Shown here piece after piece: positions 12,783-44,025 of a stretch of DNA of 64,000 bases. The notes below the pieces were generated by a model, which had not been told where the DNA came from, did not search any database, and saw only the letters and a program-made list of their open reading frames with translations. This DNA comes from an uncultured Rikenellaceae bacterium (GTDB lineage Bacteria; Bacteroidota; Bacteroidia; Bacteroidales; Rikenellaceae). Position 1 is the stretch's first letter, and the number at the start of each line of letters is the position of its first letter. A program made the translations under genes and the position numbers. The DNA is taken from assembly GCA_947038405.1 (NCBI GenBank), contig CAMQVY010000012.1, forward strand, positions 1 through 64,000, given 5' to 3'.

Positions 12783-15700
12783 TCATCGACTCAATTCGCC
12801 AATCTCTCCTCCTTTAGTTACCGTCTGGGCATCAATATGATACTTCGTACAATTACTATTGTTGTAAAATTTAACGCTCGCTTGACCATTAACATCCGTT
12901 TCAACATTCGGATTCCAATACAACGTACGACGATGATCTCCTTGGGCAGGTAGAGGTGTCTTACTATAATCTGGAGTGTAGAACTCCATATCCATACGAG
13001 TTAAACCTTGGAAAATTATAGCTCGCCTAACTTTGTCATATTGGCTATACTTATTCACCCTAATTACTTCTTTTGTAAAACCAATCTCTGCCATCTCATA
13101 TCCTCCAATATATGTTGGGGGGATAGGTATCTCTCGTACAATTGTTGATTTATTCAGAACGACATCTCTTTTTGCTTTTTGCTTTATTATGCGACAGAAA
13201 TGCTCTACGACATAGTTCGGTCTATCTTTTGAAGATGTTTTTGTGGGACTCCTATCATTGTTGTGTATCTCATATTGCTGATATTCAGAATGATCCTTAA
13301 ATTTACTATAAATTTCATCAATAACCTTAGAATCAGTGTGTATTACAGTTGAATCAAGATAACAAGTGTATTTTGAGGGGTCCAAATTGTAGTCTACAAT
13401 ATCTACTGTTTCATGTTTTAATGGAGTAGTGTAGTAACTCCTATCTGTAGTGACATTTGTGGTATCTACTGTTGTATTAGAGATAAAAGCAATACTTCCT
13501 AATGGTAGTTTATAATAATTCAAATACTCCGTTGGGTAGGCAATATGCCTATTCCTTGACCAATATGGCCCACATCTATAATAATCAAACTCTTTATTTG
13601 CTATAATAATATTACCAGCTACTATTGTTTTATATGGAATAGAGCCAATCCTAGTCTGAATTTCAGCCTCAATAATACCATTATTGACAACATAACTATC
13701 TATATCATAACTATCTTGATATCTCTCTAGTGAAGTCAAACCACGACTATGTACTCTATCTAAAATTGGACGATTAAATGCAGGATAAATATCACTGTAA
13801 AAACCTTGATTATAATATTTAGTCTTTATTGCTGGATGAAAACAATTGTCATTTTTACTATATATATCTATTTTGTCAATAGCAAATTGACTTATATACT
13901 CACCATTTATCATAGAGTTAGAGATACTATTATCTTGAGGATAAGTGATCTCAAAACAATCATACATCTTCTCGTGCGGAGACATCTCACTTTCAACTAA
14001 AAAGAAACTATGTAAGTGTGACGACAATAATTTTTTACCAAGACTCAAATCTGGATCAAGAGATGTCATTAACACTTTTGTCTCTCCATAAAAATCTTCA
14101 AAACTTATAGAAAATTGACCTGAACGATTCACTGAAGACCTATGTGTAGGTAACTTATCTCTATTCCAAAATAGACTTGTACTCTTTTCATGATTCTTAT
14201 AGTATAAGAGAGAGTCATTATATACATTGATTATTGAGACCCCATTCGTCCCCAAAAGATCTGTAAACTTATTGGTTGGTTTATAATATATATAATCTGC
14301 TCTCTTCTCTCTACTTCCTGATCCCGTTTCTCTATCAACTTTATATATTGAAAGACCATCAGCAATTTTTGAATCCCAAGTCTGACCATAGGCCCTGCCA
14401 TACATCGCCAAACTCTTCTCCAATAAATATTTATTACCCATTCGCTCATAACCGCTTAGATAGTTCCAATTATATCGGCTCCAACCATAAACCTGGAGTA
14501 ATAGATCTAAATTAGTCGCTCTTGAAGCATCAGTTGATTCAAAATAATAATCTACATTCGGAATAAATCCTTTAACCTCTGACGATAATAGTAAATTTGT
14601 ATAGATATTATCACTATTAAACGTAGGTTTATGAGTAGTGCTATCATAAATAGATAGTGAAAAGTTAGTTTCAACTCCATCGCCTTCACTATTTTTTATA
14701 TCAAATAAAATCTCTTGTTGCTCATAAGGTTTAATGTTAGTACTATCTCCTTGAATTGTTGCACCTATACTCACATAAGATTCACGATTATTGTTGCGAA
14801 TAAATATCATACGCGATGCTAATTCCATACCCTGCTCATCGTATAGAACAACTTGATTAACTCCCTCACGTAGAGTCGACTTATCAACCTCAAGATCACA
14901 TATATGATCTTTTCTTGTTAACTTAATGACATCACTAAAACCGGTACATCCTCGACTTAAAATAGCAATCCCCAAATCATAGCCATAGGCTTTTGATCCA
15001 ACGTGTACTTTTAATTTAAGGGAGTCACTTAAATTATCTACACTAAGTGTATAACCCTTATTTACTGCTTTTGGTAGTTTAAATTTACTCTTTTTATAAT
15101 CTCCTTTAATAGTGACATAATATCCACTATTCTCTCGCATAGGTGTCATCTTGAAAACGCCCATTCCCAAATGGGTTGATGATACTGAGTCGACAATTTT
15201 ATTTTGATTACTCCATAAATAGCACTTAGTATTAACAATATTACCATGGGTATCTTTAATCTGAAACGCAACCAATGACTCCATATCCTTAACTAAACTA
15301 CCTCCTTCGGGGTAGAAATTAATCTTATAATTAGGTGCAGTAGTCGCAACTAATTTCGCCTCCTCTTGCTCTTTATCACTCTTCAATGCTCCAACCGTAC
15401 GATAACGAGGAAGTGTACGAAGACTTGAAGTGGACTCTTCACCTTTTTTGATCTTCTCAAAAAGCGGAAAAACCCTTGAAAAATAGTTCTGTTCATCATA
15501 GTTAAGCATCGCCTTTGTATAGGCTCTGATCTCAAAATAACCCGAGTACAGTGCACTATCTAGTGCAAAATAACCATCACACTGACCATCAATTAACCTC
15601 TGTTTTTGTGTGCGCAGAACTGCTCCCTCTGGACTCAATAGCTCAATATGTAATATTTCACTCGCTTTGGTTAATCTATTACTATCGGAATCAACAACAT

Positions 15701-15899
15701 AGGCTTTATACCATAACGTTTCATCCAAGAAATATGAACGATTATCCATATGAAGATAGACCTTTTCATGCGGAGGATATGACCTGGTGAATTTTGTTGC
15801 CCTTGTAGAGTAATCCAAGAGATTCTGACATTCAGCATCTTTTAAACAAACTCCTTGGAGTAGAAAAATTAAAATGAAAGTTACGAGGTATTTATACAT
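12783..15899 (-). CDS. large secreted protein with macroglobulin-like (MG2) N-terminus, copy 1
   Basis: The 1038-residue protein has a signal peptide (MYKYLVTFILIFLLQG). It then has the Bacteroidetes MG2-like signature PPHEKVYLHMDNRSYFLDET (about 42-61), followed by further beta domains with SGYFEIRAYTKAML, FYPEGGSLV and ASRMIFIRNN. The C-terminus (RRTLYWNPNV, then ASVKFYNNS) is the typical last strand region of this family, whose members are large periplasmic or surface proteins distantly related to alpha-2-macroglobulins and often carry a TonB plug-like segment. A plug-like stretch (IVAGNIIIANKEF) lies near residue 760. No thioester motif is visible. It is a tandem paralogue of the next gene, and its function is unknown. 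Confidence 0.72.
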   Translation of the reverse strand: MYKYLVTFILIFLLQGVCLKDAECQNLLDYSTRATKFTRSYPPHEKVYLHMDNRSYFLDETLWYKAYVVDSDSNRLTKASEILHIELLSPEGAVLRTQKQRLIDGQCDGYFALDSALYSGYFEIRAYTKAMLNYDEQNYFSRVFPLFEKIKKGEESTSSLRTLPRYRTVGALKSDKEQEEAKLVATTAPNYKINFYPEGGSLVKDMESLVAFQIKDTHGNIVNTKCYLWSNQNKIVDSVSSTHLGMGVFKMTPMRENSGYYVTIKGDYKKSKFKLPKAVNKGYTLSVDNLSDSLKLKVHVGSKAYGYDLGIAILSRGCTGFSDVIKLTRKDHICDLEVDKSTLREGVNQVVLYDEQGMELASRMIFIRNNNRESYVSIGATIQGDSTNIKPYEQQEILFDIKNSEGDGVETNFSLSIYDSTTHKPTFNSDNIYTNLLLSSEVKGFIPNVDYYFESTDASRATNLDLLLQVYGWSRYNWNYLSGYERMGNKYLLEKSLAMYGRAYGQTWDSKIADGLSIYKVDRETGSGSREKRADYIYYKPTNKFTDLLGTNGVSIINVYNDSLLYYKNHEKSTSLFWNRDKLPTHRSSVNRSGQFSISFEDFYGETKVLMTSLDPDLSLGKKLLSSHLHSFFLVESEMSPHEKMYDCFEITYPQDNSISNSMINGEYISQFAIDKIDIYSKNDNCFHPAIKTKYYNQGFYSDIYPAFNRPILDRVHSRGLTSLERYQDSYDIDSYVVNNGIIEAEIQTRIGSIPYKTIVAGNIIIANKEFDYYRCGPYWSRNRHIAYPTEYLNYYKLPLGSIAFISNTTVDTTNVTTDRSYYTTPLKHETVDIVDYNLDPSKYTCYLDSTVIHTDSKVIDEIYSKFKDHSEYQQYEIHNNDRSPTKTSSKDRPNYVVEHFCRIIKQKAKRDVVLNKSTIVREIPIPPTYIGGYEMAEIGFTKEVIRVNKYSQYDKVRRAIIFQGLTRMDMEFYTPDYSKTPLPAQGDHRRTLYWNPNVETDVNGQASVKFYNNSNCTKYHIDAQTVTKGGEIGELSR

Positions 15900-16010: not shown

Positions 16011-18968
16011 TCACTTATTTAAAATACCCATTTCACCTTTTCTTGTTACTGTTTGTGCATCAATATTGTATTTTGTGCAGCTGCCATTGTTGTAAAACTC
16101 AACACTAGCACATCCTGTACTATCAGTTTGTACGTTTGGATTCCAATATAATGTGCGGCGATAATCCCCCTGCGTTGGAAGTGGTGTCTTGCTATAATCC
16201 GGAGAGTAGAACTCTTTATCCATGCGTGTTAGACCTTGGAATATGATTGCTCGCTTTGTCAGATCTTTATCACTGTAATGATTCTTTCTAATCAATTGTT
16301 TTACTTTGGCTATGTCCAGAACATCATGTCCCAATACTGCTAAATCCCTACCGACTAACTCCAGAACATCATCTCTTTTTGCTTCTTGTTTTATGATGCG
16401 ACAAAAGTGTTCAACGATATAAGTTGGTCGCTCTTTAGAGGATGTTTTAGACGGAGTGTCATCAGTGTTTTTTATATCATATTGTTGATATTTTGAGTGT
16501 GTCTTAAATTTATTGTGAAAATTCTCTATAGTATTATAATCAGTATGTATTATTGTGGAGTCAATGAAACATGTATATTTTGATGGATCTAAATCGTAAT
16601 CATTGATGTCTAAAGTTTCATGCTTTAGGGGGATTGTATAATAACTGCAATCTCCAGCAATATCGGTAGTATCTACTGTTGTATTAGATATAAATGCAAA
16701 ACTACCAAGTGGTAATTTATGATATTTCAAATATTCTGTAGGATATTCAATATGTCTACTTCTTGCCCAAAAAGCATCTCTCAAGTCACTATCATTATTG
16801 TTATTACGAGATCTAGTTTTAGGTACAGTCCGTCCTCTATACTTATCTATATCAAAACTTTTAGCAAATTCGCGAAGAGAACTTAAACCTCTATTATTGA
16901 CACGATCAAGAATTGGACGTTTAAATGCGGGGTAAATTTCACTGTAAAAACCTTGGTTATAATACTTTGTCTTTATTGCTGGATGAAAAACTCTTACATT
17001 TCTTTCATTTATATCAATTTCATCTATGTTATATTGGCTGATATACTCGCCATTAATGATGGCATATGACAATGCTTGTTTTTTTGGTATATTTATTTCA
17101 AAAAAATCATACGACTTCTCTTCGGGTGAACTTTCACTCTCTATTAAGAAAAATGGATATAAATGGTCAGACATCGCTTTTATTCCATTTATTTTTGAAT
17201 CACGAGACGATAGTAAAAATTTAGTCTCTCCATAGAAATCTCCAGTATTCATATGAAATTGACCCTCTCTTACAGGACATGGATGGCTAGGGAACTGATC
17301 TTTATGCCAAAAAAGACTCGTCCCTTTCTCTCTATCTTCATGATACAAAAGAGATTCATCATGTATATGAGTTAATAATATGCCACGTGTACCCCTAAGT
17401 CTCATTATTTTATCTGATGGGGAATAACCTTCTGCATCAGAATACCATCTTTGCCCATATACCATTCCATAGATTATTAAATTTTTTTCCATGAAATAAG
17501 GGGTGTCCATATCTTGATAACCACTTAAATACTCCCATTTATAACGACTCCAACCATACACTTGAAGAAGAAGATCCAAATTTGTATTTCGTTCTATATT
17601 ATTTGCTTCAAAATAATAATCAACATTCGGAATAAATCCTTTTACTTCAGATGAAAGCAGTAGGTTTGTGTATATATTATCTCTATTAAACGTTGGGTCA
17701 ATAGAGGAGCTGTCGCGAATAGATAGCGAAAAAGTTGTCTCAACTGCATCGCCATTACTATCTTTTACATTAAATAGAATATTTTGTCTTTGGTAGGGGA
17801 TTAGAGTATTACTATCTGATTTAATCGTTGCATCTATTGTTAAAATATTATCCATATTATTATTACGGATAAATATCATACGAGATGCAAGTTCTCGACC
17901 CTGTCCGTCGTAAAGAACAACCTGATTAACGCCATCTCGTAGAGTAGTTTTATTAACCTTAAACTCAGATACAAGATTGTTTTTTGTTGGCATAATACTA
18001 TCACAGAACTGCGTACACCCTCTACTCAAAATTGCAATACCCAAATTTTCAAGAATTTCAGTAGAGGTTACTTTTATTTTTAAATTTAGTGAATCACTCA
18101 AATTGTCTACATTGAGAATATAACCTCTCTTTAATACATCAGGTAACACAAATCTATTATTCTTCGCGTCATCTTTAATTGTGAGATATAGTTCATTTTT
18201 CTTTCGATTTGGAGTAATTTTCAGTGTTCCAATACCTAAATGTGTTGAATATGTAGAATCAATACATTTATTTTTTCTATTCCATAGATAACACTTTTTA
18301 TTAACTACTTTACCATCGCTGTCTTTTACCTGAAACGCAACTTTAGATTTTATGTCCATAACTAAATTACCACCCTCTGGATAGAAATTAACACTATAGT
18401 TTGGAGTTCTGTCAGCATTTCGTATATCCTTATCTTTCTCTTTTTCTGTTTTTAACTCACCAACAGTTCTATAACGAGGAAGTGTACGGCGAATAGAGTC
18501 AAATTCTCCAATGTTCTTAGGTTTTTCAAATATAGGGAATACCCTTGAGAAGTAGTTTTGTTCGTCGTAGTTAAGCATCGCTTTTGTGTAGGCACGTATC
18601 TCAAAATATCCTGAATATAGTGCACTATCTAATGCGAAATAGCCATCACATTGACCCTCTATTAGCCTCTGTTTTTGTGTGCAAATCACTGCACCCTCGG
18701 GACTTAGAAGCTCAATATGGAGTATTTCACTCGCTTTAGTGAGTTTATTGCTATCAGAATCTACGACATATGCCTTATACCACAGCGTTTCATCTAAGAA
18801 ATATGAACGATTATCCATATGAAGATAAACTTTTTCATGTGGAGGATAAGATCTTGTGAAGTTCGTTGCTATTATCGAGTAATGCAACAAATTTTGACAT
18901 TTCGCTTCATTTAAAGATACTCCTTGAATGAGGAAAATTAATATAAAGGTTACGAGGTATCTATACAT
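16011..18968 (-). CDS. large secreted protein with macroglobulin-like (MG2) N-terminus, copy 2
   Basis: I start this paralogue at the ATG at 18968 (985 residues), so that MYRYLVTFILIFLIQG aligns with the signal peptide of copy 1; an upstream extension to 19031 is not signal-like. Domain order follows copy 1: the MG2 region PPHEKVYLHMDNRSYFLDET, SGYFEIRAYTKAML, FYPEGGNLV, LASRMIFIRNN and the C-terminal RRTLYWNPNV. The two differ most near residues 700-740, where this copy has a basic, Asn-rich RSRNNNND patch, and just before the AIIFQGLTRMD block. The genes are 111 nt apart and may be co-transcribed from here. This copy lies directly opposite a divergent fimbrillin gene. Confidence 0.72.
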   Translation of the reverse strand: MYRYLVTFILIFLIQGVSLNEAKCQNLLHYSIIATNFTRSYPPHEKVYLHMDNRSYFLDETLWYKAYVVDSDSNKLTKASEILHIELLSPEGAVICTQKQRLIEGQCDGYFALDSALYSGYFEIRAYTKAMLNYDEQNYFSRVFPIFEKPKNIGEFDSIRRTLPRYRTVGELKTEKEKDKDIRNADRTPNYSVNFYPEGGNLVMDIKSKVAFQVKDSDGKVVNKKCYLWNRKNKCIDSTYSTHLGIGTLKITPNRKKNELYLTIKDDAKNNRFVLPDVLKRGYILNVDNLSDSLNLKIKVTSTEILENLGIAILSRGCTQFCDSIMPTKNNLVSEFKVNKTTLRDGVNQVVLYDGQGRELASRMIFIRNNNMDNILTIDATIKSDSNTLIPYQRQNILFNVKDSNGDAVETTFSLSIRDSSSIDPTFNRDNIYTNLLLSSEVKGFIPNVDYYFEANNIERNTNLDLLLQVYGWSRYKWEYLSGYQDMDTPYFMEKNLIIYGMVYGQRWYSDAEGYSPSDKIMRLRGTRGILLTHIHDESLLYHEDREKGTSLFWHKDQFPSHPCPVREGQFHMNTGDFYGETKFLLSSRDSKINGIKAMSDHLYPFFLIESESSPEEKSYDFFEINIPKKQALSYAIINGEYISQYNIDEIDINERNVRVFHPAIKTKYYNQGFYSEIYPAFKRPILDRVNNRGLSSLREFAKSFDIDKYRGRTVPKTRSRNNNNDSDLRDAFWARSRHIEYPTEYLKYHKLPLGSFAFISNTTVDTTDIAGDCSYYTIPLKHETLDINDYDLDPSKYTCFIDSTIIHTDYNTIENFHNKFKTHSKYQQYDIKNTDDTPSKTSSKERPTYIVEHFCRIIKQEAKRDDVLELVGRDLAVLGHDVLDIAKVKQLIRKNHYSDKDLTKRAIIFQGLTRMDKEFYSPDYSKTPLPTQGDYRRTLYWNPNVQTDSTGCASVEFYNNGSCTKYNIDAQTVTRKGEMGILNK

Positions 18969-19126
18969 AATATTGTAGTTATTAGTTCGTAGTCTACAAT
19001 ATAACGATTTTATTTTAAAATATATAATCATCCTTAAATAACTAGAGGGGCATGGTTGTTGATTTACATGTTCTAAAATGTAAAATACACTGATAAATTA
19101 ATATATACGACTAAACGTAAATGATT

Positions 19127-34949: not shown

Positions 34950-34981
34950 CAAAGGTAGCAAATTCTTAAGATAAAATGCAA
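34950..34981 (-). promoter_or_regulatory. candidate def promoter (TTG, 21-nt spacer, TACCTTTG)
   Basis: On the reverse strand TTG (34981-34979), a 21-nt spacer and TACCTTTG (34957-34950) match the Bacteroidetes -33/-7 pattern and spacing. It overlaps the first codons of rsmE and reads toward the deformylase, about 84 nt before the long ATG at 34865 and 216 nt before the short one at 34733. Confidence 0.5.
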
Positions 34982-35707
34982 CTATTCTACACACCCGACA
35001 TTACAACTCCAACATACACTCTTCCTGAAGAGGAGAGTAAACACTGTATAAGAGTCCTGCGTAAATCGACTGGAGATACTCTCAATCTTACCGATGGGAA
35101 AGGCAATATGTACACAGCAAAAATTATTGATAATAACGTTAAAAGATGCGTTGTAGAGATAATTAAAACTGTCGAAAATTTCAATAAATTACCATATGAG
35201 TTAACGATGGCTGTCGCTCCAACTAAAAATATTGAACGATTTGAATGGTTTTTAGAGAAAGCAACAGAGATAGGTACTCATATGTTTATTCCTATTGATT
35301 GTAGGCACAGCGAACGAAGAGTGATTAAAATTGATCGCGAAATGAAAGTAATTACTAGCGCAGTTAAACAATCTCTTAAAGCATTCCACCCAACTCTATC
35401 TGATATGACAACATTCAAAGAGCTTTTAAAAGGTGAATTTGATGGAGTTAAACTTATTGCTCATTGCGGAGAGGCTATAAATGAAAGATACAATATATCT
35501 GATGTCGTAAAACAATCAGATAAAGTGCTGATCTTAATTGGACCTGAAGGAGATTTCTCCCCTGAAGAGGTTGCTTTTGCTGTCGAAAACGGATTCAAAG
35601 AGATTACACTCGGAAATAGCAGATTGAGAACTGAAACTGCTGCTCTTGTTGCTGTTACGCAAGTAGCATTTATTAATCAAATAACTAATAGCATAAATGT
35701 TAATTAA
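34976..35707 (+). CDS. rsmE: 16S rRNA m3U1498 methyltransferase
   Basis: The 243-residue protein has the RsmE layout: an N-terminal PUA-like region (EEESKHCIRVLR, LTDGKGNMYTAKI) and a C-terminal SPOUT methyltransferase knot. The knot motifs ATEIGTHMFIPI, RHSERR, ILIGPEGDFSPEEV and LGNSRLRTETAAL are the SAM-binding signature. It methylates U1498 in the 16S rRNA. Its last 11 nt overlap the start of the hyfB-like gene, so translation of the membrane complex may be coupled to it. This is an unusual partner for a hydrogenase-type operon. Confidence 0.95.
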   Translation: MQLFYTPDITTPTYTLPEEESKHCIRVLRKSTGDTLNLTDGKGNMYTAKIIDNNVKRCVVEIIKTVENFNKLPYELTMAVAPTKNIERFEWFLEKATEIGTHMFIPIDCRHSERRVIKIDREMKVITSAVKQSLKAFHPTLSDMTTFKELLKGEFDGVKLIAHCGEAINERYNISDVVKQSDKVLILIGPEGDFSPEEVAFAVENGFKEITLGNSRLRTETAALVAVTQVAFINQITNSINVN

Positions 35708-37682
35708 TCTTGTAATTATACTAATATCATTAGCTATTCTGATATTTACAGTCAATTCTAAATACAAAATATGGATAACAATGGCAATTATTGCTGTTGG
35801 ATCGATTATTAGTTGCTATGAAGCGGTTAAAGTTATAGCTACCAACAACACATATAATCTAGGGAAAACAAATAACTTTATTCTCGGAGAAGGATACATG
35901 AGCATTGACCTATTATCTGCTATTTTTATGATAATTGTCTCTTGTGTCGCGATAAGTGTCGCGATATATGCCTGCGGATACTTTAAAACTCACCTTGAAT
36001 CTAAATCAAAAATACAACTATCGCTACACTGCTTCTCTCTTGTCGCTCTTTATTTTGCAATGATTGGTGCTCTCGCTAGCCAAGATATATATAGATTCTT
36101 GATATGTTGGGAACTTATGACAATATCATCATTCCTACTCATTATTTTTGATGCGCAAAATAGCGAAATACGAAAGAATGCTCTAAACTATCTCGTATTA
36201 ATGCACATCGGGTTTATTGCTCTGGTCGTTGCATTCTCTACTATTATGACGGAGGTACAACCTGCAACATTTGATTCGCTCAAAAGCTATTTTGATAATA
36301 ATAACCCAATTCCAATATTCTCTATATTTCTTCTCGGATTCGGTATTAAAGCAGGTATATTCCCACTACATATTTGGCTCCCTAAAACATATAGTGCAGC
36401 TCCTTCTCATGTCTCTGCATTTATGTCTGGAGCGATGAAAACAGTTGGAATATATGGTGTGCTTAGAGTTCTATCATACATAAATACCGAACTTATGACA
36501 ATAGGTATTGCGCTATTTATTATTGGAATTATTACGGGCGTTTGGGGTGTACTATTATCCACAATGCAACGAGATACGAAACGATTCCTTGCATACTCTA
36601 GTATGGAAAATGTCGGAATTATATTCTTAGCAATTGGAGTCTCTCTTATAGGTAAAGCTAGCGGAAACAACTTTATGGCAATATGCGCTATGACAGGGGC
36701 AATAATGCAACTTATTAGCCACTCTGCATTCAAAACACTCCTATTCTTTAGCGTCGGAAATATATGTACTCAAGCAAAATCTACAAATATGGAGAAATTA
36801 GGTGGATTAGCGAAGAAAATGCCAATGACAGCTATGCTGACAATGATATGTTTAGTCGTGGCTTGCGGATTACCTCCTCTTTGTGGATTCATCTCTGAAT
36901 TTATGATATACTACGGACTATTTGATACAATAGCAATGCAGGGCAATAACGTTATTATTGCTATCTGTGGATTAGTCGCAATGGCATTCATTGGTGGAGT
37001 GGTGATTCTTGCTTACACTAAATTTTATAGCATAATTTTCCTCGGAAACTCAAGGGTTCATTCACATGATAAAATTGTTGATGTAGGAACTGCTCGGACT
37101 ATTGCATTTACGATACCACTAATATTTATAGTCGCAATAGGATTTATGCCAGCAACTTTTTTCCAAATTATTACACCAATATCAGAAACTATTATTGGAC
37201 AGGTTGCTCATGTAACAGATATGAATAGTGTGGTTATTTCCCTAAATAATGTGAGGTTGGTCTCAATAGTTATGGTGATGATTATAATAGCACTTTATAT
37301 ACTTAAAACTCAAATGCTCAAAAAAAGAGTTGTAACTGAATCTCCAACTTGGGGTTGCGGTTTTACTGCGCCAACTGAAAGAATGCAATATAGCGGAGAA
37401 TCGTTCTCGGAAGGACTACAAGCAATAAGCCCTTCGATATCGAAAGACAAAATTGAAGAGGACAAAATTGAACGTGATGAGATATTCCCTAATGAACACA
37501 GTGTCAAAATTGAACACAAAGATAGAATAGATACTCTATTCACTCAGTGGTGGGTGGCACTTATTCATAAAATAAACAAAAAAGTTATGACAATTAAAAC
37601 AAATAGAGTTAACTACTACATATTGTATGCACTACTCTTTTTCGTTGTTATTTTCTTATTGACAATATTTAATCTAATGTAA
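35697..37682 (+). CDS. HyfB-like proton-translocating membrane subunit
   Basis: The 661-residue protein has about 15 transmembrane segments of the Nuo L/M/N (Mrp antiporter) fold. The conserved channel residues are visible: E139 in CWELMTIS, K218 in GIKAGIFPLH, the broken-helix segment AAPSHVSAFMSG (H238) and K248 in AMKTVGIYG. A late cytoplasmic loop carries TWGCGFTAPTERMQYS, typical of the hydrogenase-4 and Ehr type B subunits. A charged stretch of about 45 residues precedes the final helix. It should form a proton or sodium pathway in the inner membrane. The start overlaps rsmE and the next gene follows after 1 nt. Confidence 0.9.
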   Translation: MLINLVIILISLAILIFTVNSKYKIWITMAIIAVGSIISCYEAVKVIATNNTYNLGKTNNFILGEGYMSIDLLSAIFMIIVSCVAISVAIYACGYFKTHLESKSKIQLSLHCFSLVALYFAMIGALASQDIYRFLICWELMTISSFLLIIFDAQNSEIRKNALNYLVLMHIGFIALVVAFSTIMTEVQPATFDSLKSYFDNNNPIPIFSIFLLGFGIKAGIFPLHIWLPKTYSAAPSHVSAFMSGAMKTVGIYGVLRVLSYINTELMTIGIALFIIGIITGVWGVLLSTMQRDTKRFLAYSSMENVGIIFLAIGVSLIGKASGNNFMAICAMTGAIMQLISHSAFKTLLFFSVGNICTQAKSTNMEKLGGLAKKMPMTAMLTMICLVVACGLPPLCGFISEFMIYYGLFDTIAMQGNNVIIAICGLVAMAFIGGVVILAYTKFYSIIFLGNSRVHSHDKIVDVGTARTIAFTIPLIFIVAIGFMPATFFQIITPISETIIGQVAHVTDMNSVVISLNNVRLVSIVMVMIIIALYILKTQMLKKRVVTESPTWGCGFTAPTERMQYSGESFSEGLQAISPSISKDKIEEDKIERDEIFPNEHSVKIEHKDRIDTLFTQWWVALIHKINKKVMTIKTNRVNYYILYALLFFVVIFLLTIFNLM

Positions 37683-37683
37683 T

Positions 37684-38595
37684 ATGGAGCAGATATCAAC
37701 TACAATTATTATTATTATTTTAGCTCTTCTTATTCCTAATACTATTAGTTTAACTAAAGCAAAACTGGCTGGAAGAAGAGGTGTTAGAATATACCAGTAT
37801 TTTATGGATACAATAAAACTCCTTAGAAAAGGAGCGGTGTACTCCCCTACTACAACTGCAATATTCAAAATAGCACCTTCAGTCTATTTAGGAGCCTCTA
37901 TTGTAGCAATGCTAATGATTCCTGTTGGAGTACTACACCCTATGTTCGCATTTAATGGCGACGTAATTATGTTCTGTTACTTAATGGCTCTAGGTCGAGC
38001 GGCAATCATCCTTGCGGCGATGGACACTGGTAGTAGCTTTGAAGGGATGGGGGCTAGTAGAGAAGCTCTTTATGGTGCGCTTATTGAACCAGCTCTATTC
38101 CTGACAATTGGAACTATTGCTCTTATTTCTGGAAGTACTAATTTTAGTGACATGTTCTCACTTATTAAGTCAGATAACATTAATATGGTGATAGTAATGC
38201 TGATTATTGGATACATATCTATCAAAATATTTACTGTAGAAATGGGCAGAATCCCAATAGATGACCCTAAAACTCACCTCGAATTAACAATGATACACGA
38301 GGTAATGGTACTTGACTATTGTGGTATAGATTTAGCTTTTATTAATATTGCTAACTGGCTGAAAGGCGCTTCGATTGCAATGATTGCTGCAAATGCAATG
38401 ACAACAGCTTTCGCCCTTAATATTTGGCTAACAATCGCTTTTACAATATTCGTAGCTATCGCAATTGGTGTAGTTGAATCGATATACGCTAGAGCCAAAA
38501 TGGCTCGAAATACAACATATATATTAACTATTACGGCTATCGCAATGTTGATATTCTTCGTCGCTTTTATTTTACTTAAAGATATTAAACTATAA
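37684..38595 (+). CDS. HyfC-like (NuoH-type) membrane anchor subunit
   Basis: The 303-residue protein has about eight transmembrane helices of the NuoH/HycD family. The cytoplasmic loop RRGVRIYQYFMDTIKLLRK and the family signature VEMGRIPIDDPKTHLELTMI, with its conserved acidic residues, form the contact site for the soluble arm, next to the E-channel in complex I. In hydrogenases this subunit ties the catalytic pair to the membrane. It lies 1 nt after the HyfB-like gene and 1 nt before the HyfE-like gene. Retention of the acidic loop suggests that docking and coupling still matter, although the catalytic subunits are stripped of metal ligands. Confidence 0.9.
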   Translation: MEQISTTIIIIILALLIPNTISLTKAKLAGRRGVRIYQYFMDTIKLLRKGAVYSPTTTAIFKIAPSVYLGASIVAMLMIPVGVLHPMFAFNGDVIMFCYLMALGRAAIILAAMDTGSSFEGMGASREALYGALIEPALFLTIGTIALISGSTNFSDMFSLIKSDNINMVIVMLIIGYISIKIFTVEMGRIPIDDPKTHLELTMIHEVMVLDYCGIDLAFINIANWLKGASIAMIAANAMTTAFALNIWLTIAFTIFVAIAIGVVESIYARAKMARNTTYILTITAIAMLIFFVAFILLKDIKL

Positions 38596-38596
38596 T

Positions 38597-39232
38597 ATGG
38601 TATTCGCTCTAATTATACTATACGTAATAACTCTTATCTCAATCTCTATTACTGAGAGATTTAGAGATTATGCTTCAATTATTGCTATGCAAGGTTGGAT
38701 ACTACTATTTATTGTGCTCTTTAAACTACACTCAATTCATATATCTGAACTGTTTTTTGTTCTTGCGGAAACACTTATATTTAAAGCTATTATCGTTCCT
38801 GCAATGCTATTTAAAATTATTAGAAAAACTAAAACAAACCATATTTATGCAATTGGACAGAGCCAATTCCCATCCCTAATTACATCTATTATTGCTCTTA
38901 TTGCTAGTATCGTAACAACGTACTATATTGCTGATACAACAAGTAATATGGTGTTCTTTGGTGTTGCTCTATACGCACTGTTTAGTGGACTACTACTTAT
39001 CATACGACGAAAACGGATATTCTCTCACTTAGTAGGATTCCTTGTAATCGAAAATGGAGTATTTCTATTCTCAATGGCGATAGGTATCGAAATGCCATTC
39101 CTTATTAATATAGCAATACTTCTTGATATCCTTCTTGTCGTGTTAATGCTCGGTATGTTCCTTAGTAAAATTGGAACCTCACTAAAAAGTATTGACGTCG
39201 ATGCTGAAACTCTAACTACATTAAAAAATTAA
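38597..39232 (+). CDS. HyfE-like membrane subunit (NuoK-type C-terminal part)
   Basis: The 211-residue protein is nearly all hydrophobic, with about six helices. The pattern ELFFVLAETLIFKAIIVPAML, with Glu and Lys inside membrane segments, and IENGVFLFSMAIG near the C-terminus are typical of HyfE, which resembles NuoK. These buried acidic residues take part in ion transfer in the complex I family. The gene is packed tightly in the operon (1 nt before, 2 nt after). HyfE is found in hydrogenase-4 and Ehr complexes but not in hydrogenase-3, which helps place the operon type. Confidence 0.85.
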   Translation: MVFALIILYVITLISISITERFRDYASIIAMQGWILLFIVLFKLHSIHISELFFVLAETLIFKAIIVPAMLFKIIRKTKTNHIYAIGQSQFPSLITSIIALIASIVTTYYIADTTSNMVFFGVALYALFSGLLLIIRRKRIFSHLVGFLVIENGVFLFSMAIGIEMPFLINIAILLDILLVVLMLGMFLSKIGTSLKSIDVDAETLTTLKN

Positions 39233-39234
39233 GT

Positions 39235-40644
39235 ATGTTAACAATATATTTCTTAGCTACATTGTCGATTGTTGCGGTACTTTGCCTAGCTAAAGATCGT
39301 AAACATACGATCGCTTTAAGTGCTATCTTCTACGCTTTACAAATGTATTTCGCAGTCGATATAATTCTAAACCATATTGGAGAGACTCAACTTAGTTTCT
39401 TTACTTTCGATAATTTAGGAGTACTATGTTTTTCACTCCTATCGGTGGTCTCGGCTATGACATTCTACCACAGCATTAGATATCTTGACACTGAAACAAA
39501 TGCCCAATTTAGACTGTATAATCAACTTCTTATTCTTTTATCCTGTGCAATTACCGCAACTTACTTTGCAAACAATCTTGCCGTTACTTGGATATTAATT
39601 GAGGCTACTACAATTTTTGCTGCCGTTATTGTATACCATAGAAGAGATAAAAAAAGCCTTGAGGCAACATGGAAATATATATTCGTTTGCTCTACGGGTA
39701 TCGCAATAGCATACTTAGGAATACTACTAATTAGTAGCGCAGCAGTAGATGGAGAGCTCAGTTACGTAGCTCTTGCTTCTGCTATTAATAGCGGAAATAT
39801 GCTATACATGAAAATCGCATTTATTTTTATTCTTGTAGGATACAGCTCGAAAATGGAGATATTCCCTCTATACACTGTAGGGGTAGATGCTAATTTAGTA
39901 GCGCCAACTCCAGCTTCGGCTCTAATATCATCAGGACTCGTAAATGCAGGATTTGTAGCTATTTTTAGAGTTTTTATGATATACAAAGATACTCCAATAT
40001 TCCAATGGATATCTAATGTATTAATTGTAGCTGGCGTAGCATCTATATTTATTGGAGTACTATATCTTAGACAGACGAACAACTATAAAAGAATGTTGTC
40101 ATACTCAACTGTCGAAAATATGGGAATCGTTGCTATTGGATTAGGAATAGGGGGATATGGTCTATATGCTGCTATCCTTCATGTTATTGCTCACACACTA
40201 ATAAAGTCTGGAATGTTCTTCCAAATTGCACAAGTCGGTAAAAAATATGGAACTTACAGAATTAATAGAATTAATGACTACCTTAAATATTGTCATATAG
40301 GTGGAATTGCAATTATTGCTGGGGCAATACTACTTCTTGCATTCCCACCTTCAGGTCTTTTCGTCTCAGAACTAATGATAGTGAGACAGATAGTAATCCT
40401 CGAAAAATGGTGGCTGTTAGTCGTTATTGTTCTTATGCTATGTATTGCAATGTATGGAGTGCTTAACCAAGTAATTAAACTATCATACACTGAGTCGAAA
40501 CGTAAAACAACTAATTATAAAATAGATATAATCGGTGTTTGGCTATCTTTTGGTTTAATTATAGCCGCTTGTATATTAGGCCTTTGGCAACCTGTATGGT
40601 TTGTTGAGTTTATTAATGAAATATTAAATATGTATAGCGTATGA
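39235..40644 (+). CDS. HyfF-like proton-translocating membrane subunit
   Basis: The 469-residue protein is the second Mrp/NuoN-type channel subunit, with about 13 helices. It has the TM5 glutamate in VTWILIEATT, the Lys-containing GYSSKMEIFPLYTVGVDANLVA segment, ASALISSGLVNAGF and, later, HVIAHTLIKSGMFFQIAQVG with its conserved His and Lys. Two such pump-like subunits plus HyfC and HyfE form the full hydrogenase-4/Ehr membrane arm; a HyfD-like subunit is missing. Its end overlaps the HyfG-like start by 4 nt (ATGA), so the membrane and soluble arms are translationally coupled. Confidence 0.88.
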   Translation: MLTIYFLATLSIVAVLCLAKDRKHTIALSAIFYALQMYFAVDIILNHIGETQLSFFTFDNLGVLCFSLLSVVSAMTFYHSIRYLDTETNAQFRLYNQLLILLSCAITATYFANNLAVTWILIEATTIFAAVIVYHRRDKKSLEATWKYIFVCSTGIAIAYLGILLISSAAVDGELSYVALASAINSGNMLYMKIAFIFILVGYSSKMEIFPLYTVGVDANLVAPTPASALISSGLVNAGFVAIFRVFMIYKDTPIFQWISNVLIVAGVASIFIGVLYLRQTNNYKRMLSYSTVENMGIVAIGLGIGGYGLYAAILHVIAHTLIKSGMFFQIAQVGKKYGTYRINRINDYLKYCHIGGIAIIAGAILLLAFPPSGLFVSELMIVRQIVILEKWWLLVVIVLMLCIAMYGVLNQVIKLSYTESKRKTTNYKIDIIGVWLSFGLIIAACILGLWQPVWFVEFINEILNMYSV

Positions 40645-42158
40645 GCTGGATGAGGTTGAAAAATAGTGATAATGAAGTTAACATAGACGAAATACCATCT
40701 ATTGATTATCATGAATTTTATCAAAATGTAGTTGAGATGCTGGCTGTTGAAAACTTCCATATAGCTGACTACTTTGGATACACAACTAATAATGGACTGA
40801 AATTAATAGCAATTATTTTAGATGACCTAAATGCTGAAGTGCTAATTGCATCCCATCTATATCACTACTATTGCGAAGATAGCATTATATCTATTACGGC
40901 TAAATGTGAGGCATTACACCCATTTGAAAGAGATATTACTGAGCGATATGGTATAGTTTTTAAAGATAATCCTTGGAATAAACCTCTCCGATTCTTGCCA
41001 AATAGATTTGATAAAAGTCTAATTATTGAGAATTATCCATTCTACCAAATTTCAGGAGAGACTCTCCATGAGGTTAATGTTGGTCCTATACACGCAGGGA
41101 TAATTGAACCAGGAGCATTTAGGTTTACTTGTAATGGTGAAAAAGTACTGCATCTTGAAGTTGCGCTTGGATATCAACACAGAGGTGTCGAAGAGGCTAT
41201 GTGTAGTACGAATTCATCTCTTAGACAAAATATTATTGCCGAAAGTATCGCTGGGGATAGCGCAGTTTCAAACGCTTTCGCATTTACTACAATTATTGAA
41301 AAACTCACAATAAACAAAAATAATATATCTCCACAGTTGAATATCCAAAGAGTGATTGCTCAAGAGCTTGAACGTGTTGCGATGCACATTGCAGATACAG
41401 GTGCTCTTTGTGGTGATATTGGATACCAACTTGGTCAAGTAGCTTGTGAGGCTCTTCGAACTGTTACTATAAACACAACGCAAGCGTGGTGTGGCAACAG
41501 ATTTGGGAAAAACCTTATTAGACCTTGGGGTAGTAATTTCCCTCTAAACAGAGAGATCGTAAGTGAAATAAAAAATAATATGTCCGATGTACTCAGAAGA
41601 TATGACGAGGTGAGGCAAAATATAAAAAATACACCTTCTGTTATTGCTAGATTCGAGGCGTGCGGAACTGTAGATAGAAATATTGCACTACACATTGGTG
41701 CTGTAGGTGTGTGTGCTAAAGCATCTGGAGTTATGAGAGATATTAGAAAAACACACCCATACGCAGAGTACAAAAACATAGACCATAAACCAATAGTTAA
41801 AACTTACGGAGATGTAATGTCACGCTTAACTATACGTTGTAGAGAGGTGATACAATCTATTGAATACGTACTAGATCTTATAGCCAAAGTAAAATTTGAT
41901 GATACGATTACGCCTCCTATATATAACACAAAACTGAAACCTAATACATTAGCTTTCTCGTTCGTTGAAGGGTGGAGAGGTGAGATCGCTCATACTGCAA
42001 TAACAGATGAAAACGGAAGTATCTGTTGCTACAAAGTAAAAGATCCATCTATACACAACTGGTTAGCTCTATCTCTTGCCGTTAGAGATGAGGGAATTTC
42101 AGACTTCCCAATATGTAACAAAAGCTTTAGTCTGTCGTACTGCGGACACGATTTATAG
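40641..42158 (+). CDS. HyfG-like large subunit lacking the NiFe cysteines
   Basis: The 505-residue protein is a NuoC-NuoD fusion: residues 20-125 are NuoC-like (HPFERDITERYGI), and 140-505 match the [NiFe] large subunit/NuoD fold (VGPIHAGIIEPGAF, GYQHRGVEEAM, RVIAQELERVAMHI). At the N-terminal CxxC position, where hydrogenases read ERICGIC, it reads ESIAGDS (residues 201-207). At the C-terminal CxxC it reads FSLSYCGHD (496-504), so both paired sites are broken. The chain ends right there, with no peptide for a maturation protease to remove. It cannot hold a NiFe centre by known chemistry. This fits the Ehr group of hydrogenase-related complexes. Confidence 0.88.
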   Translation: MSWMRLKNSDNEVNIDEIPSIDYHEFYQNVVEMLAVENFHIADYFGYTTNNGLKLIAIILDDLNAEVLIASHLYHYYCEDSIISITAKCEALHPFERDITERYGIVFKDNPWNKPLRFLPNRFDKSLIIENYPFYQISGETLHEVNVGPIHAGIIEPGAFRFTCNGEKVLHLEVALGYQHRGVEEAMCSTNSSLRQNIIAESIAGDSAVSNAFAFTTIIEKLTINKNNISPQLNIQRVIAQELERVAMHIADTGALCGDIGYQLGQVACEALRTVTINTTQAWCGNRFGKNLIRPWGSNFPLNREIVSEIKNNMSDVLRRYDEVRQNIKNTPSVIARFEACGTVDRNIALHIGAVGVCAKASGVMRDIRKTHPYAEYKNIDHKPIVKTYGDVMSRLTIRCREVIQSIEYVLDLIAKVKFDDTITPPIYNTKLKPNTLAFSFVEGWRGEIAHTAITDENGSICCYKVKDPSIHNWLALSLAVRDEGISDFPICNKSFSLSYCGHDL

Positions 42159-42178
42159 GATAGTAAAAAATTATACTT

Positions 42179-42958
42179 ATGCTTATTTCAAAATTAAAGG
42201 TCATTAAAAGCCACGGGAAACAATTTATCCCAAACCTACATAAAGTTACTCTAACTCAAAGATTTAGAGGTAGACCAATTATTGCTGATTCCGTAGATAC
42301 TGAAACAATAGAAAATCTAGTGAATTTATGCCCTATGGAGGCAATAAGTCGAGAGCCTCTAGCAATTGACTTAGGGAAATGTTTATTTTGTGGTGAGTGC
42401 CAATTCCAATACCCAAATACAATTCAATTCTCTAACGATTATCGTATAGCCGCGTCTAAACGACAGGACTTAATTGTAACAGCTCAGAATAAAGACGTAA
42501 TAGAGTTTGACCACCAATATGTTCAAAAATATATTACTAAATATTTTGGAAGATCACTAAAACTTCGTCAAGTATGTGCAGGTGGTGACAATAGTTGCGA
42601 AATGGAACTAAACGCTTCTATGAATGTGAACTTCGACTTTAGTCGATATGGGATAGAATTCGTTGCATCTCCGAGACACGCAGACGGAATTGTTATTACT
42701 GGTCCTATCACAAATAGTATGGCTGCTCCTCTTCAGATGTGTTACGAGGCCATGGCTGAACCGAAAATTATTATAGTTGTAGGAACTGATGCAATTAGTG
42801 GAGGTGTGTTCGCTAATAGCAAAGCGATTAATAGAGAATTTCTAAACATAAATAGACCAGACTTATGGATTCCTGGTAATCCAGTACATCCAATGTCTTT
42901 TATTGAAGGGGTACTTGCTCTTTTAGGTAAGGCTAAGCGTGATGCAAAGAATGAATAA
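42179..42958 (+). CDS. ferredoxin-HyfI (NuoB-like) fusion with most cluster ligands replaced
   Basis: The 259-residue protein joins a bacterial-type ferredoxin domain (about 25-95) to a NuoB/HyfI small subunit (about 120-250). In the ferredoxin part C51, C68, C71 and C74 remain; the first three cysteines of motif 1 are absent and position 78 is Tyr. In the HyfI part, AGSCNGCE of relatives reads AGGDNSCE (D137, C140), GDCA/GACG reads GTDA (D204) and PGCPP reads PGNPVHP (N234), so three of the four proximal-cluster ligands are gone. GPITNSM and SGGVF keep the fold. It lies 20 nt after the HyfG-like gene and overlaps the first chrA half. Confidence 0.88.
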   Translation: MLISKLKVIKSHGKQFIPNLHKVTLTQRFRGRPIIADSVDTETIENLVNLCPMEAISREPLAIDLGKCLFCGECQFQYPNTIQFSNDYRIAASKRQDLIVTAQNKDVIEFDHQYVQKYITKYFGRSLKLRQVCAGGDNSCEMELNASMNVNFDFSRYGIEFVASPRHADGIVITGPITNSMAAPLQMCYEAMAEPKIIIVVGTDAISGGVFANSKAINREFLNINRPDLWIPGNPVHPMSFIEGVLALLGKAKRDAKNE

Positions 42959-43496
42959 AATCGAAACAGTTAAATTAAAAGCTCTATTCACCTCTTTTAG
43001 TAAAATTGGAATATCTACTTTTGGTGGTGGATACGCAATGATACCAATCATTGAACGAGAAATTGTTGAGAATCGAAAATGGATCGAAAAAGACCAATTC
43101 TTAGAACTCCTTACTCTTGCTCAATCTGCTCCAGGTCCTTTGGCGCTTAATACGGCTGTCTTTGTCGGATATAAAATATGTAAATTCAAAGGAGCACTAG
43201 TCTCTGTTTGCGGCATAGTAATACCTTCATTTACTATAATACTTATTATTGCTCTATTCTTCTCTAAAATTAAAGATAACCAAACCGTGATTGCCGCATT
43301 TAAAGGTATAAGACCCGCTGTTGTAGCTCTTATATTAGCCCCAATATTCGGATTGGTAAAAGGAATGGAGTACTATAAAATAGCTCTCGCAATTGCTGCG
43401 GCATTAGCCGTTTGGTTACTAGGAATATCTCCTATAGCATTCATCGTATTAGGTGCAATAGCTGGTTTACTACACGTAGGTTTTATAAAAAAATAA
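42951..43496 (+). CDS. chromate-transporter family protein, first half-size ChrA
   Basis: From the ATG at 42951 the protein has 181 residues; ATG 42942 and GTG 42939 are in-frame alternatives, and all overlap the upstream gene's end. The ChrA signature is clear: ISTFGGGYAMIPIIEREIV and the second motif QSAPGPLALNTAVFVGYK. About six transmembrane segments fit a half-size (short) ChrA, which usually works as a pair with the next gene. In anaerobic Bacteroidetes these proteins are widespread, and chromate may not be the natural substrate. Overlap with the hydrogenase-like operon suggests co-expression and possibly an ion-coupled link. Confidence 0.88.
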   Translation: MNKIETVKLKALFTSFSKIGISTFGGGYAMIPIIEREIVENRKWIEKDQFLELLTLAQSAPGPLALNTAVFVGYKICKFKGALVSVCGIVIPSFTIILIIALFFSKIKDNQTVIAAFKGIRPAVVALILAPIFGLVKGMEYYKIALAIAAALAVWLLGISPIAFIVLGAIAGLLHVGFIKK

Positions 43497-43503
43497 TGTA
43501 ATA

Positions 43504-44025
43504 ATGATATATTTTCAACTATTTATAACCTATCTTAAAATTGGCTTTTTCGGATTTGGTGGAGGATACACAATGCTTTCTCTTATTCAACATGAAGTCG
43601 TTGAATACAGACATTGGATATCTAATAGTGAATTGACTGATATTATCGCAATATCTCAAATGACACCAGGACCTATCGCAATTAATAGTGCAACATATAT
43701 CGGATATACTGTAACTGGAAATATATGGGGCTCTATTATAGCCACAGTTGCTGTGTGCCTGCCTGCCCTATCTATAATGATACTAATAACTAGATTTTAC
43801 CTAAAACTGCAAAATAACAAGTATGTTACTGGCATTCTTAGTGGTATGAAACCAATGATGATAGGTATGATTCTCTCTGCTGGGATACTATTACTTACAC
43901 CAAATACATTTATTGATTACAAAAGTTGGATTATACTTGCTGCTGCATTTATTCTATCTATACTCAAATTAAACCCTATTATACTCATTATTATAGCTGG
44001 TATAGTAGGTGTGATGATATATTAG
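43504..44025 (+). CDS. chromate-transporter family protein, second half-size ChrA
   Basis: The 173-residue partner carries the same two signatures, GFFGFGGGYTMLSLIQHEVV and QMTPGPIAINSATYIGY, and about six membrane helices. It starts 7 nt after the first half, and the two halves presumably form one antiparallel transporter, as known for short-chain ChrA pairs. It is the last gene of the rsmE-hyf-chr transcript. The intergenic DNA after it holds two strong hairpins, shared with the convergent Sus-type operon. Confidence 0.88.
   Translation: MIYFQLFITYLKIGFFGFGGGYTMLSLIQHEVVEYRHWISNSELTDIIAISQMTPGPIAINSATYIGYTVTGNIWGSIIATVAVCLPALSIMILITRFYLKLQNNKYVTGILSGMKPMMIGMILSAGILLLTPNTFIDYKSWIILAAAFILSILKLNPIILIIIAGIVGVMIY

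Follow-up and report, generated by a model that had tools for sequence, protein, structure and literature searches.

Ehr complexes, the described systems closest to the operon analysed here, combine hydrogenase-4-like and antiporter-like proteins with a large subunit lacking Ni/Fe ligands. They have been reported in Melainabacteria, Lentisphaerae and Spirochaetes, and are suspected of coupling redox reactions to ion translocation (PMC6349859). The word cysteine is absent from the main text of that paper, and no Ehr complex lacking N2 was described in the literature searched, which left out most subscription papers. Among related systems, NuoI-type subunits hold a distal (N6a) and a medial (N6b) cluster, N2 is the terminal cluster, and ferredoxin enters NDH-1 at N6a (PMC7021789). 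E. coli formate hydrogenlyase (FHL) has a [NiFe] site, the proximal cluster G1 and two HycF clusters, with adjacent clusters <14 Å apart (PMC9474812). P. furiosus MBS, built on the complex I plan, has no [NiFe] site; its distal and medial clusters feed a three-Cys proximal cluster, which is itself the catalyst and reduces polysulfide (PMC7684303). P. furiosus MBH is a working hydrogenase with a full relay, and DAB2 (DabA2-DabB2), in which DabA2 is carbonic-anhydrase-like, has a NuoL-like proton path without redox chemistry (PMC13144422).

The window, that is, the whole 64,000-nucleotide stretch of DNA analysed here from an uncultured Rikenellaceae bacterium, encodes a group 4 hydrogenase/complex I-like operon, hyfB-hyfC-hyfE-hyfF-hyfG-hyfHI (35697-42958), with antiporter-like, NuoH-, NuoD- and NuoB-like subunits:

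35697..37682, forward strand: HyfB, antiporter-like (HycC match, 2.2e-39)
37684..38595, forward strand: HyfC, NuoH/HycD-like, connecting the arms (HycD match, 9.5e-25)
38597..39232, forward strand: HyfE membrane subunit (NCBIfam hydrogenase 4 membrane subunit, 3.8e-13)
39235..40644, forward strand: HyfF, antiporter-like (Pfam Proton_antipo_M)
40641..42158, forward strand: HyfG-like large subunit without either [NiFe] CxxC motif, ending NKSFSLSYCGHDL (HycE match, 2.3e-29)
42179..42958, forward strand: HyfH-HyfI fusion, ferredoxin-type domain at about residues 1-105 and NuoB/MbhJ-like small subunit at about 119-255

The final gene is an intact open reading frame of 259 residues with a match to Pfam Oxidored_q6 (3e-20). 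Residues 1-105 match HycF (5.8e-6) and NuoI (1.5e-5), and residues 119-255 match MbhJ (4.9e-25), HycG (1.6e-19) and also NuoB; because the ferredoxin-type and small-subunit matches lie in separate halves, the gene is a fusion of HyfH (ferredoxin) and HyfI (NuoB/MbhJ). An AF2 model of the fusion built with 80 relatives (pLDDT 90.9, pTM 0.88) matched MbhJ, HycG and NuoB in the PDB, and a model of residues 1-105 (pLDDT 87.6) gave HycF and NuoI as top PDB matches; convergence of the Cys sulfurs was not established. The window’s own genome has many ferredoxin-type matches, no further NuoB-like match and no match to the hydrogenase family PF00374. The same gene order is common to most loci long enough to display it. 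The window operon has only one hyfB, versus two in tandem in many Bacteroidota operons (L038, L042, L043, L044, L050, L060, L063, L064, L070, L073, L076 and L077). Elsewhere in the window, two tandem genes of ~1,000 amino acids (12783-15899 and 16011-19031) look like mutual paralogues.

The ferredoxin-type domain of the fusion lacks the two complete CxxCxxCxxxCP sets of a 2[4Fe-4S] HycF/NuoI-type protein and has one set only:

42296..42319, forward strand: residues 40-47, where motif 1 Cys1-3 would lie (lost distal, N6a-type cluster), Cys-free; the large-subunit tree shows 21 changes across the three Cys positions
42329..42331, forward strand: C51, motif 1 Cys4, kept medial (N6b-type) ligand, invariant in 160/160 sequences carrying the domain
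42380..42400, forward strand: C68, C71 and C74, motif 2 Cys1-3, kept, same cluster as C51, invariant in 160/160
42410..42412, forward strand: Y78, site of motif 2 Cys4 (lost distal cluster), mostly F in relatives

Alignment with HycF and NuoI identifies the four Cys (codons starting at 42329, 42380, 42389 and 42398) as motif 1 Cys4 and motif 2 Cys1-3, with residues 51-52 forming the CP of motif 1; by established NuoI/Nqo9 numbering, we take them to be the N6b (medial) set. Residues 40-47 read DTETIENL, without Cys. A sequence-only reading had claimed that C51 with C68, C71 and C74 forms one full ligand set and that the other set is wholly gone, with motif 2 Cys4 replaced by Y78; the first claim held in the HycF/NuoI alignment and the second in the window sequence. 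The domain thus carries a single complete four-Cys set, conserved in 160/160, and cluster binding itself has not been shown.

The same reading held that random decay would not remove precisely one set. Under independent loss, the chance that four lost ligands out of eight make up exactly one set is 2/70 (3%) in one sequence, so a single sequence is merely suggestive and conservation decides. A plain protein query against 295 genomes of the same order recovered >60 long orthologues at ~45-58% identity, and the four kept Cys were invariant in the 30/30 orthologues first examined and in 38/38 others with full coverage; two genomes of the same family lacked the fusion gene. Across 84,980 species, a scan returned at least 572 confirmed relatives. 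Of these, 80 were retained, mostly from Bacteroidota, the others from Gastranaerophilales, Spirochaetia, Ignavibacteriales, Lentisphaeria, Victivallales, Aminicenantes and one Extensimonas. Motif 2 Cys are part of one of the two patterns behind this species scan, so the plain-query set serves as control, with 68/68 full-coverage sequences intact. On a tree of the large subunit, a separate gene (78 rows), changes between Cys and other residues numbered 0 at each kept position and 8, 8, 5 and 7 at the lost distal positions (28 in total). The trees were quick (LG+G4) and have some long branches, and sequence counts are not fully independent (some genomes occur in two collections, as suggested for L009 and L076 by their equally long contigs). 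Invariance in 160/160 sequences, together with 0 versus 28 changes on the tree, shows strong selection on the kept four-Cys set. A chance origin of the one-set pattern, improbable in one sequence, is ruled out by conservation. The check for free variation of the four Cys among orthologues found none in the 160 domain-carrying sequences, and the claim that selection preserves a one-cluster protein is supported.

The claim that the distal set was ‘deleted exactly’ failed as worded. Among the 160 sequences with the domain, distal-set Cys number 0 in 115, one to three in 23 and all four in 22. The existence of these 23 intermediates and the repeated changes on the tree show that distal-cluster loss was stepwise, piecemeal and recurrent, not one exact deletion.

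Losses extend to the fused small subunit, where the N2/proximal ligand set is also missing:

42587..42598, forward strand: D137 and C140, site of N2/proximal ligands 1-2 (CxxC in MbhJ/HycG), by alignment
42788..42790, forward strand: D204, site of N2 ligand 3 (GxC in relatives), by alignment
42878..42880, forward strand: N234, site of N2 ligand 4 (PGCP in relatives), by alignment

With D137/C140/D204/N234 at these positions, three of four ligands of the proximal [4Fe-4S] set are gone from the window small subunit. Positions 137 and 204 are D or E in all N2-less relatives examined, and positions 140 and 234 vary. An N2 cluster held by Asp is not excluded but is unlikely, given this variability (Alistipes has Ala at 234). 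Relatives differ in the combination of losses. Both ferredoxin clusters and N2 are present in 21 of the 160 sequences (for example, L087 and L090), N2 is present with the distal set lost in L086, L088, L094, L099 and L156, N2 is lost with both ferredoxin ligand sets present in L072, and both N2 and the distal set are lost in the window and most Bacteroidales. Since the medial set is kept whether the distal set, N2 or both are lost, its retention is independent of either relay neighbour. The sequence-only reading had missed the loss of N2 ligands in the fused NuoB domain and the loss of the [NiFe] motifs; given these losses, the window protein cannot be regarded simply as a functional ferredoxin wire with one cluster.

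Neither [NiFe] CxxC motif was found at either site in window HyfG or in 67 aligned large subunits, and a working [NiFe] hydrogenase is rejected on the absence of these motifs. Across the 67 aligned sequences, HyfG D206 and D504 are invariant and the C-terminal NKSxxLSYxGxDL is nearly or fully so. We note that an invariant C164 (41130-41132) and the near-invariant C-terminal motif at residues 493-505 (42117-42155) stand in place of the [NiFe] ligands. In the membrane arm, assessed over 54-68 sequences per subunit, conserved residues include E139, K218, H225, K295, H342, K346 and E401 of HyfB, E123, K206, K285, H316, H320, K324 and E379 of HyfF, and E120, E127, E135, E186, D193, D194, E200, E206, D211 and E265 of HyfC. 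We take the conserved charged residues of these subunits to be proton-path/E-channel positions.

In one relative, L151, the small subunit lacks cluster ligands altogether. Its Ehr-type operon (L151:536-7752) is ordered hyfI-hyfB-hyfC-hyfE-hyfF-hyfG, with hyfI first, and encodes a small subunit without a ferredoxin domain and with D/C/D/D at the N2 positions, a large subunit without [NiFe] motifs ending NKSFNLSYCGNDL, and all membrane subunits. Both the ferredoxin domain and the N2 ligands are present in L153 and L154, the nearer relatives of L151, so the L151 state is probably derived, although a separate ferredoxin subunit elsewhere in the L151 genome is not excluded. The L151 gene order recalls Rv0082-Rv0087 of M. 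tuberculosis.

The operon is flanked by two recurring features:

34976..35707, forward strand: rsmE-like gene overlapping the hyfB start (blastp of neighbours), conserved upstream in the Alistipes/Rikenellaceae-type group
42951..44025, forward strand: two chromate-transporter-family (ChrA-type) genes (Pfam Chromate_transp)

We take the upstream gene to be rsmE-like from a reading of its sequence, with no domain search behind the name. The ATG of the ChrA-type pair at 42951 overlaps the HyfHI stop (ending at 42958) by 8 bases, the pair is likely to be co-transcribed with the operon, and it occupies the same position in several Alistipes/Rikenellaceae-type loci. In other lineages, SulP genes adjoin the operon (L102:1049-3481, L107:765-3241, L052:10784-12484 and L053:10872-12542) and an HTH-PTS_EIIA_2 gene precedes it (L087, L088, L102 and L107). 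In L154, a more distant locus, STAS and PTS_EIIA_2 lie upstream. The ChrA and SulP neighbours could hint at anion or inorganic-carbon transport, with no background rate behind the association.

Compared with the described systems, the window complex is a variant of Ehr. It shares the hydrogenase-4-like and antiporter-like subunits and the large subunit without Ni/Fe ligands, and Melainabacteria, Lentisphaerae and Spirochaetes lineages are also among its relatives. However, the window’s branch additionally lacks N2 ligands and one of two ferredoxin clusters, and N2 and distal loss with strict medial retention was not found described in the literature searched. E. coli formate hydrogenlyase/hydrogenase 4 (HycB-G, HyfA-I) provides the closest solved homologues in HycC, HycD, HycE and HycF, yet the window keeps one HycF-type set where FHL has two. 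Among solved structures, MbhJ of MBH matches the window small subunit best, with HycG second, whereas the full relay of MBH is not matched. MBS resembles the window complex in its complex I plan and in having no [NiFe] site, and differs in its proximal cluster, whose ligands are gone from the window; MBS-like catalysis there is rejected because three Cys are required (PMC7684303) and three of four ligands are absent. DAB2 is related through the antiporter-like subunit only.

Our main reading, on which the evidence is evenly balanced, is that this Ehr-type complex no longer needs linear electron flow, moves ions and uses its last cluster in a structural or regulatory role. Homology, operon, ligand losses and conservation are shown; ion movement and the role of the cluster are inferred, without biochemistry. 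In this view, the fused electron-transfer subunit has shed the distal (N6a) and proximal (N2) clusters together with the [NiFe] site and kept the middle (N6b) cluster alone, so that the relay would be interrupted before and after the medial cluster as well as at the active site. The usual path from ferredoxin through distal, medial and proximal clusters to the active site could not run, and the electron routes of FHL, NDH-1 and MBS are unavailable because the distal, proximal and active sites are lost. Non-redox ion movement is proposed because charged residues are still conserved in the membrane arm while the relay is broken; the complex would most likely transport ions (H+ or Na+) with no redox turnover involved, working either as a secondary transporter or as a coupled, ion-driven machine. 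The remaining cluster would most likely be a structural element or a redox-, iron- or oxygen-sensitive switch, keeping the ferredoxin domain docked on the large subunit, and the acidic pair D137/D204 at the old N2 site may be a protonatable or metal-binding site, a role that is inferred. Against this reading, strict retention of the cluster would fit an electron carrier to an unidentified acceptor equally well, and no power source or coupling has been identified for a non-redox complex.

The main rival, which remains possible, is a short redox path in which the medial cluster still receives electrons from ferredoxin and hands them on to an unidentified acceptor, driving ion pumping. The acceptor would be a quinone, a disulfide or another cofactor bound where the N2 or large-subunit site has changed. 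In its favour, the [4Fe-4S] ligand set is kept without exception and the genome has many ferredoxin-type matches, C164, D206 and the C-terminal LSYxGxDL of the large subunit could frame a new site, and both NDH-1 and MBS accept electrons from ferredoxin (PMC7021789, PMC7684303). Against it, the normal ferredoxin entry at N6a (PMC7021789) is lost here, as is the proximal cluster that feeds or is the active site (PMC7684303), and given FHL spacing of <14 Å (PMC9474812), two missing steps leave a gap.

An unlikely alternative is anion or inorganic-carbon uptake, in which a partner transporter (ChrA for the window lineage, SulP for others) would work with ion gradients that the complex I-like module either consumes or generates, much as DAB2 couples a NuoL-like subunit to CO2 hydration. 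It is supported by the overlap of the ChrA pair with the last operon gene and its recurrence in several Alistipes/Rikenellaceae-type loci, by SulP beside the operon in L052, L053, L102 and L107 and HTH-PTS_EIIA_2 in L087, L088, L102 and L107, and by DAB2 as a non-redox precedent (PMC13144422). However, neither partner occurs in most loci, the association is limited to a few lineages without a background rate, and the operon showed no carbonic-anhydrase-like gene. A decaying relic or pseudogene with a functionless remaining cluster would fit the absence of the [NiFe] motifs and of all but one of the three clusters, as well as the two same-family genomes without the fusion gene, but is rejected, and all but excluded, by intact open reading frames, gene order and residues conserved across several phyla in at least 572 relatives, and four Cys invariant in 160/160.

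A bolder form of the non-redox reading, which we consider less probable than its negation though not by a wide margin, is that a widespread machine built on the complex I plan gave up electron transfer and that its ions are driven or gated by non-redox means. The lone cluster would then be a structural or sensing element, the acidic pair would replace N2, and cluster-free relatives like L151 would mark where this path ends. The coupling of electron transfer to proton movement in complex I is under debate. A natural family with stepwise relay states (full, distal lost, proximal lost, both lost and all lost) and an intact membrane arm would let both halves of the complex I plan be studied apart, and would test the complex I fold as an ion transporter without redox chemistry. 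For the gut Bacteroidales that carry these operons, such as Alistipes, the names hydrogenase, formate hydrogenlyase and NADH dehydrogenase are likely to be wrong.
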